NCBI GenBank assembly: GCA_021825925.1
Contig: JAKAFP010000003.1
Location: 372,001-436,000, forward strand
DNA: 64,000 nt
From: Chloroflexota bacterium
Lineage (GTDB): Bacteria > Chloroflexota > Anaerolineae > Anaerolineales > Anaerolineaceae
Direction: 5' to 3'
How positions within the stretch are numbered: position 1 is the stretch's first letter; the number at the start of each line of letters is the position of its first letter. Position numbers and translations under genes: made by a program. Positions 15,475 through 51,995 of this stretch are shown piece by piece. A model generated the notes under the pieces. The model saw nothing but the letters and a program-made list of their open reading frames with translations, was not told where the DNA came from and made no database searches.

Positions 15475-16152
15475 TTTTTAACCACGAAAGACACAAAATC
15501 ACTAAAAAGAAAGGAAATAAACCAAAACCTCTTTACCACGAACCACACGAAATACACAAAAAATGAAATCAATAAACTAATGTAAAAAAACATTTTGTTT
15601 TGAATACTTGAAATATTCAGAATAAAAAAAATTATTTAAAGGACGATTCTTTCTACAGTTGCACGTGGATAATGACCAAAATTAACAAGGAGTCCAAGAT
15701 GCAGCTTTGTAACTTTTAAATAATTATGAAGTTGTGCTTTGTGTTCTTCAACAGTTTCCTTAACCGCTTTGAGTTCAAGAATAATCTTTTCATAACAAAC
15801 AAAATCAGGCCGATAAACTTGATTGAGGATAATGCCTTTATATGCGATTGTCATTTCAGATTGTGCCTTAAAGGGGATATTTCTTAATGAAAACTCTTTT
15901 GCAAGTGCTTCCTGGTAGACTGCTTCTACAAAACCACAACCCAATTCGCGATATACCTCAAAAATCGCTCCTTGGATCAAAAAACTCTCTTCCTTAAGCA
16001 GGAGTCTGTTTTCTGCCTCGGAATTCATAATTCCCTCCTAGATAATGATTTTGTTTCTTGCCTTTCTTTTAGTGTATTTAGTGTGTTTCGTGGTTAATAA
16101 GGATTTTTTGATTTTCTTTTTTATTTCATTTATGTCTTTTGTGGTTAATTAG
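15475..16152. mobile_element. GxxExxY element A with nested inverted repeats
   Basis: A GxxExxY gene is enclosed by AT-rich repeat arms. Left outer arm 15475-15523 (TTAACCACGAAAGACACAAA..AAAGAAAGG) is the inverse of right inner arm 16061-16101 (TTAACCACGAAACACACTAA..AAAGAAAGG). Left inner arm 15532-15576 (TTTACCACGAACCACACGAA..AAATGAAAT) resembles the inverse of right outer arm 16111-16152 (TTAACCACAAAAGACATAAATGAAAT). The right end lies 2-3 nt from the stop codon of the next gene. This suggests a nested or double insertion. Confidence 0.65.
15636..16028 (-). CDS. GxxExxY family protein (PD-(D/E)xK nuclease-like), copy A
   Basis: 130 residues. The family signature is G32-F-V-E35-A-V-Y38. A PD-(D/E)xK-like core is visible: Asp75 in YRPDFVCY, then Glu85 and Lys87 in ILELKAV, and the closing helix/strand AQLHNYLKVTKLHLGLLVNFG. 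The biochemical role of this family is not established as far as I know; the fold suggests nuclease chemistry. The gene is AT-rich against GC-rich dnaK and PAP2 neighbours and is framed by inverted repeats, so it was probably acquired. Confidence 0.85.
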   Translation of the reverse strand: MNSEAENRLLLKEESFLIQGAIFEVYRELGCGFVEAVYQEALAKEFSLRNIPFKAQSEMTIAYKGIILNQVYRPDFVCYEKIILELKAVKETVEEHKAQLHNYLKVTKLHLGLLVNFGHYPRATVERIVL

Positions 16153-24947: not shown

Positions 24948-25451
24948 TTCTCGCAAGTTCGCCAAGTAAAGGTACGCAAAGAGCATAAAGAAAATCTTAT
25001 TAGAAAATCTTAAGACCATTAGCAATTCTGGTGATCCCATCTTTAATCAGTGGAACATTAAAATTTATGAGTAACCCTAAACGAAGATCAGATATCTTTA
25101 GATAGGTTAACAATTGCTTCTTATGAATGTCCATTACTTTTTCTATTGATTTGAGTTCAACAATAACGGATTTCTCGATCAATAAATCAGCCCGATAACC
25201 AACATCTACTTTAATGCCATCGTATTGGGCAGGCATGGGTCTTTCTGACTCTACAAATAATCCCCTCTTCGTCAATTCATGAAAAAGAAACGCCTGATAT
25301 GCAGATTCCAAAAGGCCAGGTCCAACTGTTGAATGAATTTTAAATGCAGCATCCACCACAATCTTGGCAATCTCATTTTCATTCATTTTTCCTCCCTATA
25401 TTGTTTTCTTTGAGGTCTTTGCTCCACTTCCTTTGCGAACTTCGCGAGAAA
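24948..25451. mobile_element. GxxExxY element B with CGCAAAG-type inverted repeats
   Basis: Left arm 24948-24995 (TTCTCGCAAGTTCGCCAAG..CGCAAAGAGCATAAAGAAAA) and right arm 25404-25451 read on the opposite strand (TTCTCGCGAAGTTCGCAAAG..GCAAAGACCTCAAAGAAAA) are imperfect inverted repeats about 45 nt long, enclosing a single gene. The right arm ends about 6 nt from the gatB stop and the left arm starts 20 nt after the upstream stop. Confidence 0.65.
25000..25386 (-). CDS. GxxExxY family protein (PD-(D/E)xK nuclease-like), copy B
   Basis: 128 residues. The signature is G24-L-L-E27-S-A-Y30. The nuclease-like core has Asp67 in GYRADLLIE, then Glu77 and Lys79 in VIVELKSI, followed by KKQLLTYLKISDLRLGLLINFN. 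It is more divergent from copies A and C than they are from each other. The gene is AT-rich between a GC-rich membrane protein and gatB, and is bounded by its own inverted repeats. Confidence 0.85.
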   Translation of the reverse strand: MNENEIAKIVVDAAFKIHSTVGPGLLESAYQAFLFHELTKRGLFVESERPMPAQYDGIKVDVGYRADLLIEKSVIVELKSIEKVMDIHKKQLLTYLKISDLRLGLLINFNVPLIKDGITRIANGLKIF

Positions 25452-25457
25452 AATCTG

Positions 25458-26912
25458 TTATCTTAACAACTCTTCCAATATTTGTTTCGCCTTGGCTGCG
25501 TCGGCTTTGCCGCGCATCTTTTTCATGACGCCGCCCACAAACCACCCGATGAGGGTAACCTTGCCGCCCTTGTAAGCTGCCACTTCGTTGGGGCTTTCGG
25601 TTAGCACTTCCTGGCACACGGCGCGGATGGCGGAATCGTCACTCACCAATCCCAGGCCTTCGTCAGCCACGATCATTTCAGGGGATTTGCCGCTTTGCTG
25701 CACTTTTTGCAGCAGGCTCTTGCCGGTGTTGATGTTGATGGTGCCGGCATCCACCAGCTTTAGGATGGAGGCCAGTGCGGCGGGGGTCAACGACATCTCG
25801 GCAGGGTTGAGCTCCTGGTCATTGATCATGCGCAGCACTTCGTTCATCAGCCAGTTGGAGACTTTTTTCGGATCCCCGGCGTAGGCTTTGACGGTGGCTT
25901 CATAATAATCGGAGAGTTTGCGCTCCGAGGTGAGGATCTCTGCATCGTACTCTGGCAGGCCGTACTGTTCGATGAAGCGCGCACGGCGTTCCAGTGGCAG
26001 TTCGGGGAAGTTGGCCAGGATGGCATGCTTCCACTCGTCCTCAAGACGAATGGGCAGCAGATCGGGTTCTCTGAAGTAGCGATAATCGGCTTCGGTCTCT
26101 TTGGAGCGCATCTTCTTGAGGGTGTTGGTGTCCTCGTCCCATTCGAGCGTCCAAGCTTCGATGCGGTTACCGGCTTCAGTCTCGCGGATCTGGCGTTCGA
26201 CTTCTTTGAGGATGGACTCACGCACGGCGTCAATGGAGTTGACGTTCTTGATCTCGGTCTTGGAGTTGAGAATGGTCTCGCCCTTCTTGCGGATGGAGAC
26301 GTTGGCGTCACAGCGCAGGTGGCCCTTTTCCATATCGGCTTCGGAGATGCCGATCCAGCGCAGAAGCTGGCGCAAGCGGGTAAGGTATTGGGCGGCTTCG
26401 TCCGCGGTGCGCAGGTCGGGGGCGGTCACCATCTCGACCAGCGGCACGCCGCAGCGGTTAAAGTCAATCAGGCGACGATTGCCCGCGGTCTTGGTCTTGC
26501 CGGCATCTTCTTCGATGTGCATCTTCCAGATACCTACGCGGCGGATGTAAGCCTGTTTATCCAGCGAGGCATTGGCTGGAACCGGCAGATCGAGGTATCC
26601 GCCCTTGCCAATGGATTGATCAAATTGGGAGATCTGATATCCCTTGGGCAGGTCGGGGTAGAAATAATTCTTGCGGTCGAAGTATGAGATCGGACGAATC
26701 TCGGAGTGCATGGCGTTGGCCAACAGGGTGGCCTTTTCTACCACAGCTTTGTTGAGCACTGGCAGCACACCCGGCAAGCCGCAGCACACCGGGCAGATAT
26801 TGGTGTTGGGCTCGTCGTACCAGGAATCCGCTTTGCAGGAGCAAAACACCTTGGTGGTGGTATTCAATTGAATGTGTGTTTCAAGTCCGATCACTGCTTC
26901 GTATTCTGTCAT
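25458..26912 (-). CDS. gatB: Asp/Glu-tRNA amidotransferase subunit B
   Basis: 484 residues from ATG 26912 (AGAGG upstream); a longer in-frame extension to 27020 lacks homology. Landmarks are YEAVIGLETHIQL, FCSCKADSWYDEPNTNICPVCCGLPGVLP with the zinc Cys pairs, DFNRCGVPLVEMVT and KGHLRCDANVSIR. The C-terminal GatB/YqeY helical domain ends in VGGVMKKMRGKAD. With GatA and GatC it converts misacylated Glu-tRNA(Gln) or Asp-tRNA(Asn). Confidence 0.97.
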   Translation of the reverse strand: MTEYEAVIGLETHIQLNTTTKVFCSCKADSWYDEPNTNICPVCCGLPGVLPVLNKAVVEKATLLANAMHSEIRPISYFDRKNYFYPDLPKGYQISQFDQSIGKGGYLDLPVPANASLDKQAYIRRVGIWKMHIEEDAGKTKTAGNRRLIDFNRCGVPLVEMVTAPDLRTADEAAQYLTRLRQLLRWIGISEADMEKGHLRCDANVSIRKKGETILNSKTEIKNVNSIDAVRESILKEVERQIRETEAGNRIEAWTLEWDEDTNTLKKMRSKETEADYRYFREPDLLPIRLEDEWKHAILANFPELPLERRARFIEQYGLPEYDAEILTSERKLSDYYEATVKAYAGDPKKVSNWLMNEVLRMINDQELNPAEMSLTPAALASILKLVDAGTININTGKSLLQKVQQSGKSPEMIVADEGLGLVSDDSAIRAVCQEVLTESPNEVAAYKGGKVTLIGWFVGGVMKKMRGKADAAKAKQILEELLR

Positions 26913-26949
26913 TTTGCCTCTGAAAAAGAAAGATATCAAAGATAGAAAA

Positions 26950-27720
26950 TTATTGTCGTGCAAAATCCACGGTAAAGTAACCTTCGTGCTGGCTGTTGGG
27001 ATCGCACCAGTAGCCGACACCCATCTGTGTATAGGTAGAGCTGAGCATCTGGTCGCGATGGCTTGGGCTGTTCAGCCAGGAGGAGATCGCGGAATCCGCG
27101 GTGTTGTAAGAACCGGGTCCTGCATAGAGGATCTCGCCAACTGCAGTGTAAGAGCCTGATGAGTTGATACGGCTCCAGATGTCGCCGTGGCCAAAAAAGC
27201 TGTTCTCTGCCATGGACTTGCTGTAACTGCGGGCGATGCCCGCCAGGGTGGATGAGTTCGACAATGATCCCAGCCCGGCGCTGGAGCGCTGGCTGTTGAT
27301 CATGCTGAACACGGAAGATTCCATGGAACTGTTCGCACCGTTGCATCCGTCTCCGCCGCCTCCTTCGCTGACAGGTCCACCTTCACCTCCGCCACCTTCA
27401 GAAGATGTGGGGGTCTTGGTGGGTTTTGGGGGAGCTTTTGTTAAAGTTCTGGTCGGCCGGGGTGTGCTGGTTTGGGTGGCCGTGGAGGTCGGTGTTTCTG
27501 TAGCGGTTGCCGTTGCGGTATTGGTGACGGTTGAGGTTTGTGTGGGCGTCACCGTTGGTGTCAAAGTAGCGGTGGCAGTTGCTGTGTTGGTCGAGGTAGC
27601 GGTACTGGTAAGGGTGGGTGTTTCAGACGCCATCATCCTGCTGATCGTGTTTGTAAATGCACAAGCAGAACTAAACCCAACCATTAAAATCAATATAAGA
27701 ACCGCTAATAATCGCTTCAT
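26950..27720 (-). CDS. CAP-domain (SCP/PR1) lipoprotein
   Basis: 256 residues from ATG 27720. A lipoprotein-like signal ends near SSAC. A long Thr/Ala/Ser/Val low-complexity linker follows at about 33-105 (imperfect ACNGC-type repeats at DNA level), then a Gly-rich spacer and a CAP domain at about 133-256. The CAP domain shows MINSQRSSAGL, a His-containing GHGDIWSRI, VGEILYAG, SPSHRDQMLSS and MGVGYWC. The His/Glu cleft of CAP proteins appears present. It sits between gatA and gatB on the same strand, with short spacing. Confidence 0.88.
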   Translation of the reverse strand: MKRLLAVLILILMVGFSSACAFTNTISRMMASETPTLTSTATSTNTATATATLTPTVTPTQTSTVTNTATATATETPTSTATQTSTPRPTRTLTKAPPKPTKTPTSSEGGGGEGGPVSEGGGGDGCNGANSSMESSVFSMINSQRSSAGLGSLSNSSTLAGIARSYSKSMAENSFFGHGDIWSRINSSGSYTAVGEILYAGPGSYNTADSAISSWLNSPSHRDQMLSSTYTQMGVGYWCDPNSQHEGYFTVDFARQ

Positions 27721-49741: not shown

Positions 49742-51469
49742 ATGAGCGATATGAGTAAATTGATCAACAATAAATCCAGCGATCAGCCCATTGGATACGT
49801 GGTGGGCGGTGGTCTTAAAGCCAACCTCTTTGTGCGTCTCACCGTCCCCTCGGACCAGGTTCAGGAGGGTGGATTTGTCGTGCTCGAAAGTGGAAACTGG
49901 CAGTTTTACGGGCTGGTGACCGATCTGCAACTCGGCGCTTCCGATCTGCGCTATGCCGAGAAACCGGCTGATAACAGACTCTCGCCAACGATCACTCGTC
50001 TGCTCAATGAACAGACCCTGTATACCAACCTTGAAGTGCTGCCCGCACTTATGCTCGAACGAGGTCCCGAGCTGGATTCACCCGATTACGAAGCCTGGGC
50101 AAAGGCACATCAGAACGAGAACCTGCCCCGTCCACTGCCGATCAAGACCGTGCCTGCGCACCATGCGCTGGCGCGGTTGGCCTCCGCCGGGGACGTGGCC
50201 GAGATCTTCGGTGAACCCGGTCATAAGGGATTCTTCGAGATCGGCAAGACCCGAGAACAGAACCATCCCGTGTGCATCAACCTGGACAAGTTCGTGCAGC
50301 GCAGCGCAGGCATCTTTGGTGCCACCGGCTCGGGTAAGTCATTCCTGACCCGCATCATCCTGGCGGGATTGATCGAACACAACGCTGCCTCTGTGCTGGT
50401 TTTTGATATGCACAATGAGTACGGGTTTGACGACATCGCCTCGGATACCGGTCAGCCGGTGGTGGGCTTGCGCAGCAAGTTCGCTTCACGCGTGCGCGTG
50501 GTTGGGTTGGGGCGCAAGAGCACCATCCGTGGCAAGACGCCCGACCTGACGCTTGAGATCAACGAATCCGACATTCAACCCGCGGATATTGAACTACTGG
50601 CGCGCGAACTTAACCTGCGCGACACCACCTCCACCACGTTGGACGCACTGATCCATTCGTTTGGAGCGGCCAAATGGTTCAGCGAATTCAAAAAGATGGT
50701 GGTGGGCGCCATGGAAACAGACGACGATGGCAAGAAGGTGCCCGCCCCTGACAGCGTGGCTTTTTGGGCCAACCAGGTGGGGGTCAACGTGGCCGCCGCG
50801 GAAGGCCTGCGCAGCAAGTTGGGACGTGTCTTTACTCGTCCTTATATTGTTGAAGAAACTGCCGGCGTTGATCCACTTAAGAACGTGATCGAAGCGTTGC
50901 AAGCCGGACAGCATGTGATCTTGTCGTTTGGTGACTATGAATCCGACCTGGATTACCTGTTGGTCTCAAACCTGCTGACACGCAAGATCCGCGACGCGTG
51001 GGAGGAAAGAACCAATGACTTCCGCAGTCACGGCAAGGCTGAGCCGCGTCCGCTGGTGATCGCGGTGGAAGAAGCCCACAAACTGCTCAACCGTGAGATG
51101 GCTTCGCAAACCTCGTTCAGCACCATTGCGCGCGAGATGCGCAAGTATTACGTCACCCTGCTGATCATTGACCAGCGGCCATCGCAGATCTACGACGAAG
51201 TCATGTCCCAACTGGGCACGCGCGTCTCCGGCTGGCTCGGAGATGAGAGCGACGTGGCCGCGGTGCTCTCCGGTTTGGCTGGGAGGGATGCCCTGCGTGG
51301 AATGCTGGCTCGCCTGCAGCCCAAAGAGGAAGTTGTTCTGTTGGGCTGGGGTGTGCCGATGCCCATCCTGGTGCGTTCACGGCGCTATGACCAAAAATTC
51401 TGGGATGAACTGTTGCCTCGATTGGGCGGCAAGAGTGTAGATCAGAACCTGAAAGATTTAGGTTTTTAA
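49742..51469 (+). CDS. herA: HerA hexameric DNA translocase
   Basis: 575 residues. An N-terminal HAS barrel (about 19-70) is followed by the FtsK/HerA ATPase core: Walker A FGATGSGKSFLTR (193-200), VLVFDMHNEYGFDD, Walker B PLVIAVEEAHKLLN near 437-450 and a C-terminal arginine-finger region QRPSQIYDEVMSQLGTRV. It drives DNA into NurA. The stop codon is 4 nt from the left arm of GxxExxY element C. Confidence 0.95.
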   Translation: MSDMSKLINNKSSDQPIGYVVGGGLKANLFVRLTVPSDQVQEGGFVVLESGNWQFYGLVTDLQLGASDLRYAEKPADNRLSPTITRLLNEQTLYTNLEVLPALMLERGPELDSPDYEAWAKAHQNENLPRPLPIKTVPAHHALARLASAGDVAEIFGEPGHKGFFEIGKTREQNHPVCINLDKFVQRSAGIFGATGSGKSFLTRIILAGLIEHNAASVLVFDMHNEYGFDDIASDTGQPVVGLRSKFASRVRVVGLGRKSTIRGKTPDLTLEINESDIQPADIELLARELNLRDTTSTTLDALIHSFGAAKWFSEFKKMVVGAMETDDDGKKVPAPDSVAFWANQVGVNVAAAEGLRSKLGRVFTRPYIVEETAGVDPLKNVIEALQAGQHVILSFGDYESDLDYLLVSNLLTRKIRDAWEERTNDFRSHGKAEPRPLVIAVEEAHKLLNREMASQTSFSTIAREMRKYYVTLLIIDQRPSQIYDEVMSQLGTRVSGWLGDESDVAAVLSGLAGRDALRGMLARLQPKEEVVLLGWGVPMPILVRSRRYDQKFWDELLPRLGGKSVDQNLKDLGF

Positions 51470-51473
51470 GAAC

Positions 51474-51995
51474 AAAACCACGAAAGGACGAAAAGCACGA
51501 AAAATTCTTTAATAAATTCAAAAACCATAATATTTTCATAGGGAGGAAAATATGAGCAACTATATGCACATTGAGATCAATAAGATCCTCTTTAAAGAGG
51601 AGAGTTATGCCATTCAAGGCGCTGTTTTTGAAGTGTATAAAGAAATTGGAAGTGGATTTCTGGAACCCATTTATCAGGAATGCCTCTTAAGAGAACTTAA
51701 TTTTAGAAAAATCCCTTTTCTGGCACAACCTGAAATGCGACTTAGTTATAAAGGCATTCTGCTTGATCAAGTCTATCGCCCTGATTTCCTGTGTTACGAC
51801 TCAATCATGCTTGAGTTAAAGGCAACCAAGGTTCTCACTGATGATTTTCGGGCGCAATTATTTAATTACCTGAAGATTTCAAAATTGAGACTTGGTTTGT
51901 TGATTAATTTTGGCCACAATCCGCGCGTTGAAATCGAAAGGATCGTTCTTTAATAAAGAATTTTTTCGTGTATTTCGTCCTTTCGAGGTTTAAAA
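51474..51995. mobile_element. GxxExxY element C with near-perfect inverted repeats
   Basis: Left arm 51474-51515 (AAAACCACGAAAGGACGAAA..CACGAAAAATTCTTTAATAA) and right arm 51951-51995 read in reverse (TAAACCTCGAAAGGACGAAA..CACGAAAAAATTCTTTATTAA) differ at about four positions and one gap over 43 nt. They enclose only the GxxExxY gene. This is the best-preserved of the three elements. Confidence 0.72.
51552..51953 (+). CDS. GxxExxY family protein (PD-(D/E)xK nuclease-like), copy C
   Basis: 133 residues. Signature G35-F-L-E38-P-I-Y41. The core has Asp78 in YRPDFLCY, Glu88 and Lys90 in IMLELKAT, and AQLFNYLKISKLRLGLLINFGHNPRVEIERIVL. It is clearly closer to copy A than to copy B. GGGAGG lies before the ATG. 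The gene is AT-rich between GC-rich herA and nfeD. Confidence 0.87.
   Translation: MSNYMHIEINKILFKEESYAIQGAVFEVYKEIGSGFLEPIYQECLLRELNFRKIPFLAQPEMRLSYKGILLDQVYRPDFLCYDSIMLELKATKVLTDDFRAQLFNYLKISKLRLGLLINFGHNPRVEIERIVL

Follow-up and report, generated by a model that had tools for sequence, protein, structure and literature searches.

What does the small gene behind gatB do, and does its product read the repeats that flank it? The window (the whole stretch of 64,000 nucleotides that was analysed, from a Chloroflexota bacterium) holds here a gene of the GxxExxY family between two arrays of short repeats; we call the whole element B and the arrays its arms. The GxxExxY family is named and has no described function. 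Its open-access literature (TIGR04256, PF13366) consists of passing mentions that never refer to flanking arrays; subscription papers were excluded. An earlier note on this DNA had claimed that protein and arms seem to have diverged together, as would be expected of a protein that recognises the arms.

Element B is a single gene enclosed by an inverted pair of arms. The upstream arm, on the right in the window, spans about 25405-25451 on the minus strand (CTCGCGAAGTTCGCAAAGGAAGTGGAGCAAAGACCTCAAAGAAAA). It carries four units, CGCGAAG (25440-25446), CGCAAAG (25431-25437), AGCAAAG (25417-25423) and CTCAAAG (25408-25414), whose spacing of 9, 14 and 9 gives a 2+2 layout. The downstream arm, on the left and inverted relative to the first, spans about 24950-24993 on the plus strand (CTCGCAAGTTCGCCAAGTAAAGGTACGCAAAGAGCATAAAGAAAA), with units CGCAAG (24952-24957), CGCCAAG (24960-24966), CGCAAAG (24975-24981) and CATAAAG (24984-24990). 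When the upstream flank is aligned locally with the reverse complement of the downstream flank, the score is 20.0; the 99th percentile of cross-family comparisons is 13.0. The pair was missed by a general repeat search with a 14-nt minimum because the arms are imperfect and too degenerate, and in the genome's own sequence matches to a simple B-type arm pattern stayed at chance level. The closest relatives of B, with 85% protein identity and found in the sister genomes G013 and G010, have the identical 2+2 layout with cleaner CGCAAAG words. The host gene gatB lies at 25458-27020 on the minus strand, its stop codon (25458-25460) abutting the element, and the GxxExxY gene follows it in the same direction. 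Both the inverted arm pair and the 6 nt between the last arm base, 25451, and the gatB stop are as the earlier note had described them.

The GxxExxY protein is a predicted nuclease. Its gene (25000-25386, minus strand) is preceded by a good ribosome-binding site, AGGGAGG, and encodes 128 amino acids that belong to the family by both profiles: TIGR04256 at 140 bits (curated cut-off 35) and PF13366 (PDDEXK_3) at 135.6 bits (curated cut-off 22). In the family alignment, the GxxExxY motif and the active-site residues (G24, E27, Y30, D67, E77 and K79) are invariant or more than 90% conserved. A sequence search against solved structures found no relative. The AlphaFold2 model is a confident alpha-beta structure (pLDDT 94.7) with a PD-(D/E)XK fold. 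In fold comparison its best match is SSO0001 (4ic1, Z 9.6), followed by BpuSI (8.2) and then many at 6-7. The model thus resembles nucleases of this superfamily only generally, and we claim no functional subfamily. Activity is inferred from the conservation of E27, D67, E77 and K79. Relative to its 85%-identical relatives in the sister genomes, the gene has a dN/dS of 0.05-0.06, and across GxxExxY proteins dN/dS values of 0.03-0.10 indicate purifying selection.

Elements A and C share the architecture of B and use a different dialect of its repeat. The window contains all three family members of its genome (3.4 Mb, 84% complete). The A gene (15636-16028, minus strand) lies between CACGAAA-type arms with a pair score of 34.5. 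These arms are doubled on both sides: the upstream arm (16061-16151, minus strand) comprises copies at about 16061-16098 and 16128-16151, and the downstream arm (15480-15562, plus strand) copies at about 15480-15510 and 15535-15562. Tandem arm copies likewise occur at several other loci (for example L017 and L007). The C gene (51552-51953, plus strand; pair score 29) also has CACGAAA-type arms, upstream at 51475-51513 on the plus strand and, inverted, downstream at 51957-51993 on the minus strand. Element C directly follows the stop of a 575-aa ORF (49742-51469), which we take to be HerA-helicase-like. Of the three proteins, B diverges most, as claimed earlier, with identities of 34% (A-B) and 40% (B-C) against 60% (A-C). 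The further claim that B combines the same architecture with a different repeat family stands for the architecture only. The repeat is not unrelated: all three elements share the grammar C-R-C-N-R-A-K, within which the free letters differ, CGCAAAG in B and CACGAAA in A and C.

Paired arms are a general property of GxxExxY loci. We sampled loci from 61 relatives and 151 members of the phylum together with 80 loci from other phyla, and used loci of the S23 family as a comparison. Each upstream flank was aligned with its own reverse-complemented downstream flank, and scores above 13 were counted. By this measure, arms pair at 167 of 227 GxxExxY loci, compared with 6% of mispaired flanks from the same family and 1% of cross-family flanks. 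The corresponding figures for S23 are 45 of 56 loci and 2.7% of mispaired S23 flanks. About a quarter of GxxExxY genes have no detectable arms.

GxxExxY arms follow a common word grammar. In about 180 related elements, an arm mostly consists of three to four copies of the 7-nt word C-R-C-N-R-A-K. Anchored on R-C-N-R-A, units are spaced 7-13 nt apart, mostly 8-12 with a mode of 9, and the arm period is 9 (8-10). Neighbouring units within an arm agree at the variable letters, numbered by position, far above expectation: 0.84 at R2 (expected 0.50), 0.66 at N4 (0.36), 0.91 at R5 (0.53) and 0.84 at K7 (0.43). Spacer positions, at any spacing, agree at 0.28-0.38 against an expected 0.27-0.30. The word therefore varies among elements and is common to the units of one element. 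Strict word arrays were absent from simulated windows. Agreement between left and right arms had served to find the arms and is excluded as independent evidence.

This grammar bears on whether slippage produced the arms as simple tandem repeats without any role in recognition. The short period would fit such an origin, as would some arrays that form longer tandem runs (G042). Slippage does not account for a 7-nt word that stays constant while its spacing ranges from 7 to 13 nt and its spacers are random, nor for left and right arms that carry the same word in inverted form, nor for words tied to a residue of the protein (see below). We regard a slippage origin as highly improbable, and as a full account it is refuted by the word and spacer grammar together with the sister-pair contrast at residue 7. 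Constant words separated by free spacers of varying length resemble an array of binding sites, unlike the product of slippage or a plain RNA stem.

Arms track the protein rather than the genome. Among 166 elements with arms, protein identity between elements of different genomes correlates with the 5-mer similarity of their arms (Mantel r 0.44, p<5e-4). Between genomes, arm similarity is 0.09 below 40% protein identity, 0.16-0.22 at 45-60% and 0.64 above 80%. Where proteins are less than 45% identical, pairs within one genome have arms scarcely more alike (0.113, n=62) than pairs between genomes (0.097). On the protein tree, the word letters change much less often than in shuffled data: 9 changes against a mean of 41.6 for K7, 17 against 49.6 for N4, 21 against 43.0 for R5 and 25 against 46.7 for R2. 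This comparison of protein tree and arm types across genomes was the check that the earlier note had proposed; the two agree, and its claim of co-divergence is borne out, dissimilar proteins having dissimilar arms even within a genome. S23 arms also follow their proteins (Mantel r 0.40, p 5e-4), on fewer data and driven by pairs above 50% identity.

Such agreement could in principle reflect linked inheritance only. Arms and gene would then have been copied together and agree by common descent, with no contact between protein and arm. Arms and gene are indeed physical neighbours on the DNA, the most similar arms belong to the closest proteins, and in S23 an excess of similarity appears only above about 50% identity. 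For R2, N4 and K7, common ancestry accounts for part of the signal seen between deeper clades. Common descent alone, however, does not explain why spacers are near chance at 45-70% protein identity while the word letters are kept. K7 matches at 0.77 between proteins 45-55% identical and at 0.23 below 35%, with spacers at 0.27-0.32, so something besides recent ancestry holds the words. Nor does common descent explain why the units of one arm vary jointly, or why a single protein residue is singled out for a single letter once ancestry is removed and again in held-out elements (see below). Linkage by itself is in our judgement an improbable explanation.

One residue of the protein predicts one letter of the word. 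Residue 7 belongs to the N-terminal helix (MNENEIA7K in B), and on 15 of 21 tree branches it and letter R5 change jointly. The expectation is 2.8 (z 8.0), and no other protein column comes close. In the training set, Thr7 goes with G at letter 5 in all 37 elements, and Ala7 or Val7 with A in 41 of 43; Ser7 is ambiguous (40 A and 12 G among 52, and 6 A and 4 G in the test set). The rule was fixed in advance and a frozen pipeline was then applied to more of the family, taken from 44 genomes in other phyla, yielding 43 held-out elements less than 80% identical to any training protein. Ala7 goes with A (5/5) and Thr7 again with G (24/24; p 1.5e-7 by Fisher's test of Thr versus all others); in elements less than 60% identical to training proteins, Thr7 goes with G in 14 of 14. 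Since each of these genomes had also given one training locus, it is the identity cut-offs, and not separate organisms, that make the test independent. The 92 disjoint closest pairs offer a contrast that removes ancestry: a difference at residue 7 accompanies 19 of the 22 differences at R5 and is present in 13 of the 68 pairs with the same R5 letter (p 2e-8, the best among about 125 columns). Residue 11, one helix turn further, ranks second.

A second rule is only suggestive, resting on few independent changes. Tyr at residue 18 goes with A or T at K7 (22/22 in training, 8/8 in the test), and His mostly with G. The window follows this putative pattern: A and C have Tyr with CACGAAA, and B has His with CGCAAAG. 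By inference, positions 7, 11 and 18 share one face of an ideal helix. Two further candidates were rejected. A rule from L25/F25 to N4, set beforehand, failed in the held-out elements, and one from residue 123 to R2 was an alignment-end effect, mostly gap versus N, that reversed in the test set.

We conclude, with considerable confidence, that the GxxExxY protein reads its own flanking repeats, and that this is recognition beyond mere linkage. The earlier claim of recognition thereby gains support from the tie between residue 7 and letter 5. That support comes from sequence comparison, and there are no binding data.

GxxExxY elements lie behind host genes in sense orientation and turn over at orthologous sites. 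The upstream host gene is co-directional in 133 of 154 cases, and the arm edge lies a median of 5 nt from the host stop. At the 3' end of gatB, one genome has the full cassette (G000), two have arms with a broken gene (G007, G005), two and probably a third have arm remnants only (G001, G013, probably G009), and four are empty (G010, G006, G012, G011). The flanks of the filled and empty sites (G000, G010) are recognisable and too diverged to define any target-site duplication. In G013, the closest relative of B lies beyond the neighbouring membrane-protein gene, on its other side. The site behind the gene preceding C mostly holds A/C-type elements, and G002 has a CGCAAAG-type element at the identical point. 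Judging from this comparison, cassettes appear and disappear at orthologous sites between sister species.

Arrays without a gene are also widespread. Across 61 genomes, exact CACGAA triplets form 373 solo arrays, and the reversed control a single one. For CACGAA (p 1.5e-4) and CACAGA (p 0.004), solo arrays are enriched in genomes where a GxxExxY gene with the cognate word is found; CGCAAA solo arrays show no significant tie to cognate genes (p 0.25). These counts include the genes' own arms, which makes the enrichment test generous for rare words. One genome, G042, has 192 of the CACGAA triplet arrays (for example on contigs C2, C9, C20 and C28), many of them long tandem runs, with only two GxxExxY genes. 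Many solo arrays are single, unpaired arms, which a simple paired-end transposition model leaves unexplained.

Several individual loci deserve mention. In G039, three ORFs of 273-282 aa (L094, L095, L096) carry two tandem-fused GxxExxY domains and adjoin AACGGAT-type repeats. In G018, two divergent GxxExxY genes (L098, L099) in similar contexts lack obvious arms and are possible domesticated copies. A cassette with CACAGAG arms (L258) occurs in an archaeal MAG of the Methanosarcinales, which would imply inter-domain transfer if it is not contamination. Carriage by phage was rejected as a general account: only three relatives lie in viral contigs, and the family is mainly chromosomal.

The turnover and the solo arrays bear on the idea of a regulatory cassette, in which the arms are operators or terminators and a domesticated protein controls its own or a neighbouring gene without any mobility. 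Recognition of the arms, purifying selection and the position at gene ends would all suit such a role. A downstream arm is unnecessary for autoregulation, however, and different host genes are involved. Patchy presence at orthologous sites, decayed copies, arm-only remnants and the hundreds of solo arrays in some genomes further count against it, and we give this idea little credence.

Instead, we favour, with moderate confidence, the reading that element B represents one copy of a selfish cassette, widespread and about 500 bp long, in which a predicted PD-(D/E)XK nuclease gene lies between inverted arrays of recognition words. Each arm would present three to four C-R-C-N-R-A-K words at a spacing of about one helical turn. 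The protein would bind its own arms, as DNA or as their RNA, through helix 1, and the 2+2 layout suggests dimers on paired units. It would then cut at or near the arrays, and by this cutting the cassette and its gene-less arrays would spread or home, in much the way that RAYT transposases are believed to act on REPs. Expression would come by read-through from the host gene. The mobility step is an inference that we think somewhat likelier to be right than wrong: no movement or cleavage was observed, and the exact boundary of the cassette is not established.

S23 genes offer a parallel that raises the question of RNA. S23, or four-helix-bundle, genes (TIGR02436) also occur outside rRNA between inverted arms (L104-L133 and L281-L300, including L125 in the genome of the window). 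The genes stand in sense orientation and their arms carry words of 7-nt period such as GCGGTTA, GTAATCA and GGACCAT. The period of 7 recurs at 14 and 21. The upstream neighbour is co-directional in 37 of 41 cases, and the arm starts a median of -2 nt from the stop, often containing the stop codon. In Flavobacterium (L230, L237, L244), an S23 and a GxxExxY element, with arms of 7-nt and 9-nt period respectively, occur less than 2 kb apart. In G013, the site that element A occupies in the window, behind a membrane-protein gene, has a heptamer-type array, GAGAATA (L338): both array classes use the same kind of site. The Coxiella IVS has terminal inverted repeats and tandem GACAGAT heptamers (PMC4990558). 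In the open-access literature on S23 and repeats, subscription papers excluded, these heptamers are the only instance.

GxxExxY elements might accordingly be RNA elements of the IVS type. In read-through transcripts their arms would serve chiefly as a long RNA stem and a substrate of RNase III, and a multimer of the protein would bind the words as RNA. S23 genes of the 23S-rRNA IVS family share the layout with period 7, and the Coxiella IVS has its inverted repeats and heptamers; in both families the element immediately follows a host stop codon in the sense direction; and the arms pair in the predicted fold of the B transcript (z -2.1). A stem, by contrast, needs only complementarity between left and right, not identical words with free spacers. 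The PD-(D/E)XK fold with its conserved active site and the common solo single arms likewise speak against an RNA element, and so does the lack of any rRNA marker: a search of GxxExxY loci for eight short rRNA motifs found none, and B itself lies after gatB. Insertion into rRNA was thus not seen at the loci searched with these motifs. We consider the RNA element unlikely, while noting that the present data do not separate RNA and DNA versions. For the selfish cassette, whether the target is DNA or RNA remains undecided: sense orientation and the S23/IVS parallel favour an RNA step, and the nuclease fold and solo arrays favour DNA.

The parallel also permits a wider proposal, which we offer tentatively and which may well not hold. 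GxxExxY and S23 could both belong, each as one branch, to a so far undescribed class of selfish "word-array" elements, in which the rRNA IVS would be the one member noticed before. In such a class, a small protein would be encoded in sense orientation behind a host stop, between inverted arrays of the word that it reads. The period would be 9 nt for the nuclease and 7 nt for the four-helix bundle, helix-1 residue 7 would specify letter 5, and the protein would scatter gene-less arrays across the genome.

These results provide a first testable function for a common family of "unknown" proteins, found from Chloroflexota to Bacteroidota, Cyanobacteria and one archaeal MAG, and link it to dispersed intergenic repeats. 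They also point to a natural protein-nucleic-acid recognition code with many variants, in which a specificity letter of a 128-aa predicted nuclease changes with one residue. Finally, they suggest a reason for the inverted, heptamer-bearing ends of S23 IVS elements, a question open since the 1990s.

The GxxExxY element resembles three known systems in part. Like insertion sequences with terminal inverted repeats, it places a nuclease gene between inverted ends that are probably recognised by the product; unlike them, it has no known transposase domain and no established target-site duplication, its ends are multi-unit and solo ends are abundant. With the 23S rRNA IVS/S23 elements it shares the size of the cassette (about 430-500 bp) and of its single ORF (about 120-130 aa), and inverted arms built from short direct repeats. 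The S23 genes outside rRNA in relatives of the window's genome agree with it in layout, orientation and position. S23, however, is a four-helix bundle, whereas the GxxExxY protein is an unrelated protein of nuclease fold, with an arm period of 9 instead of 7. In REP/RAYT systems, as described, a gene is flanked by inverted short extragenic repeats, the repeats are dispersed without the gene, and repeat and protein are associated (PMC2817692, PMC3116915, PMC8266576). The likeness lies in these features: the gene of a nucleic-acid-cutting protein, a predicted nuclease in GxxExxY, lies between inverted repeats, and cognate repeats are dispersed without it. But RAYT is a Y1 HUH transposase, and the GxxExxY protein is PD-(D/E)XK by Pfam and by predicted fold. 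A REP is a single imperfect palindrome or hairpin with a conserved tetranucleotide foot, whereas GxxExxY arms are arrays of a non-palindromic 7-nt word, and the GxxExxY gene immediately follows a host stop codon, in the sense direction. The GxxExxY element works like REP/RAYT and is built like the S23 IVS, and it is a member of neither.
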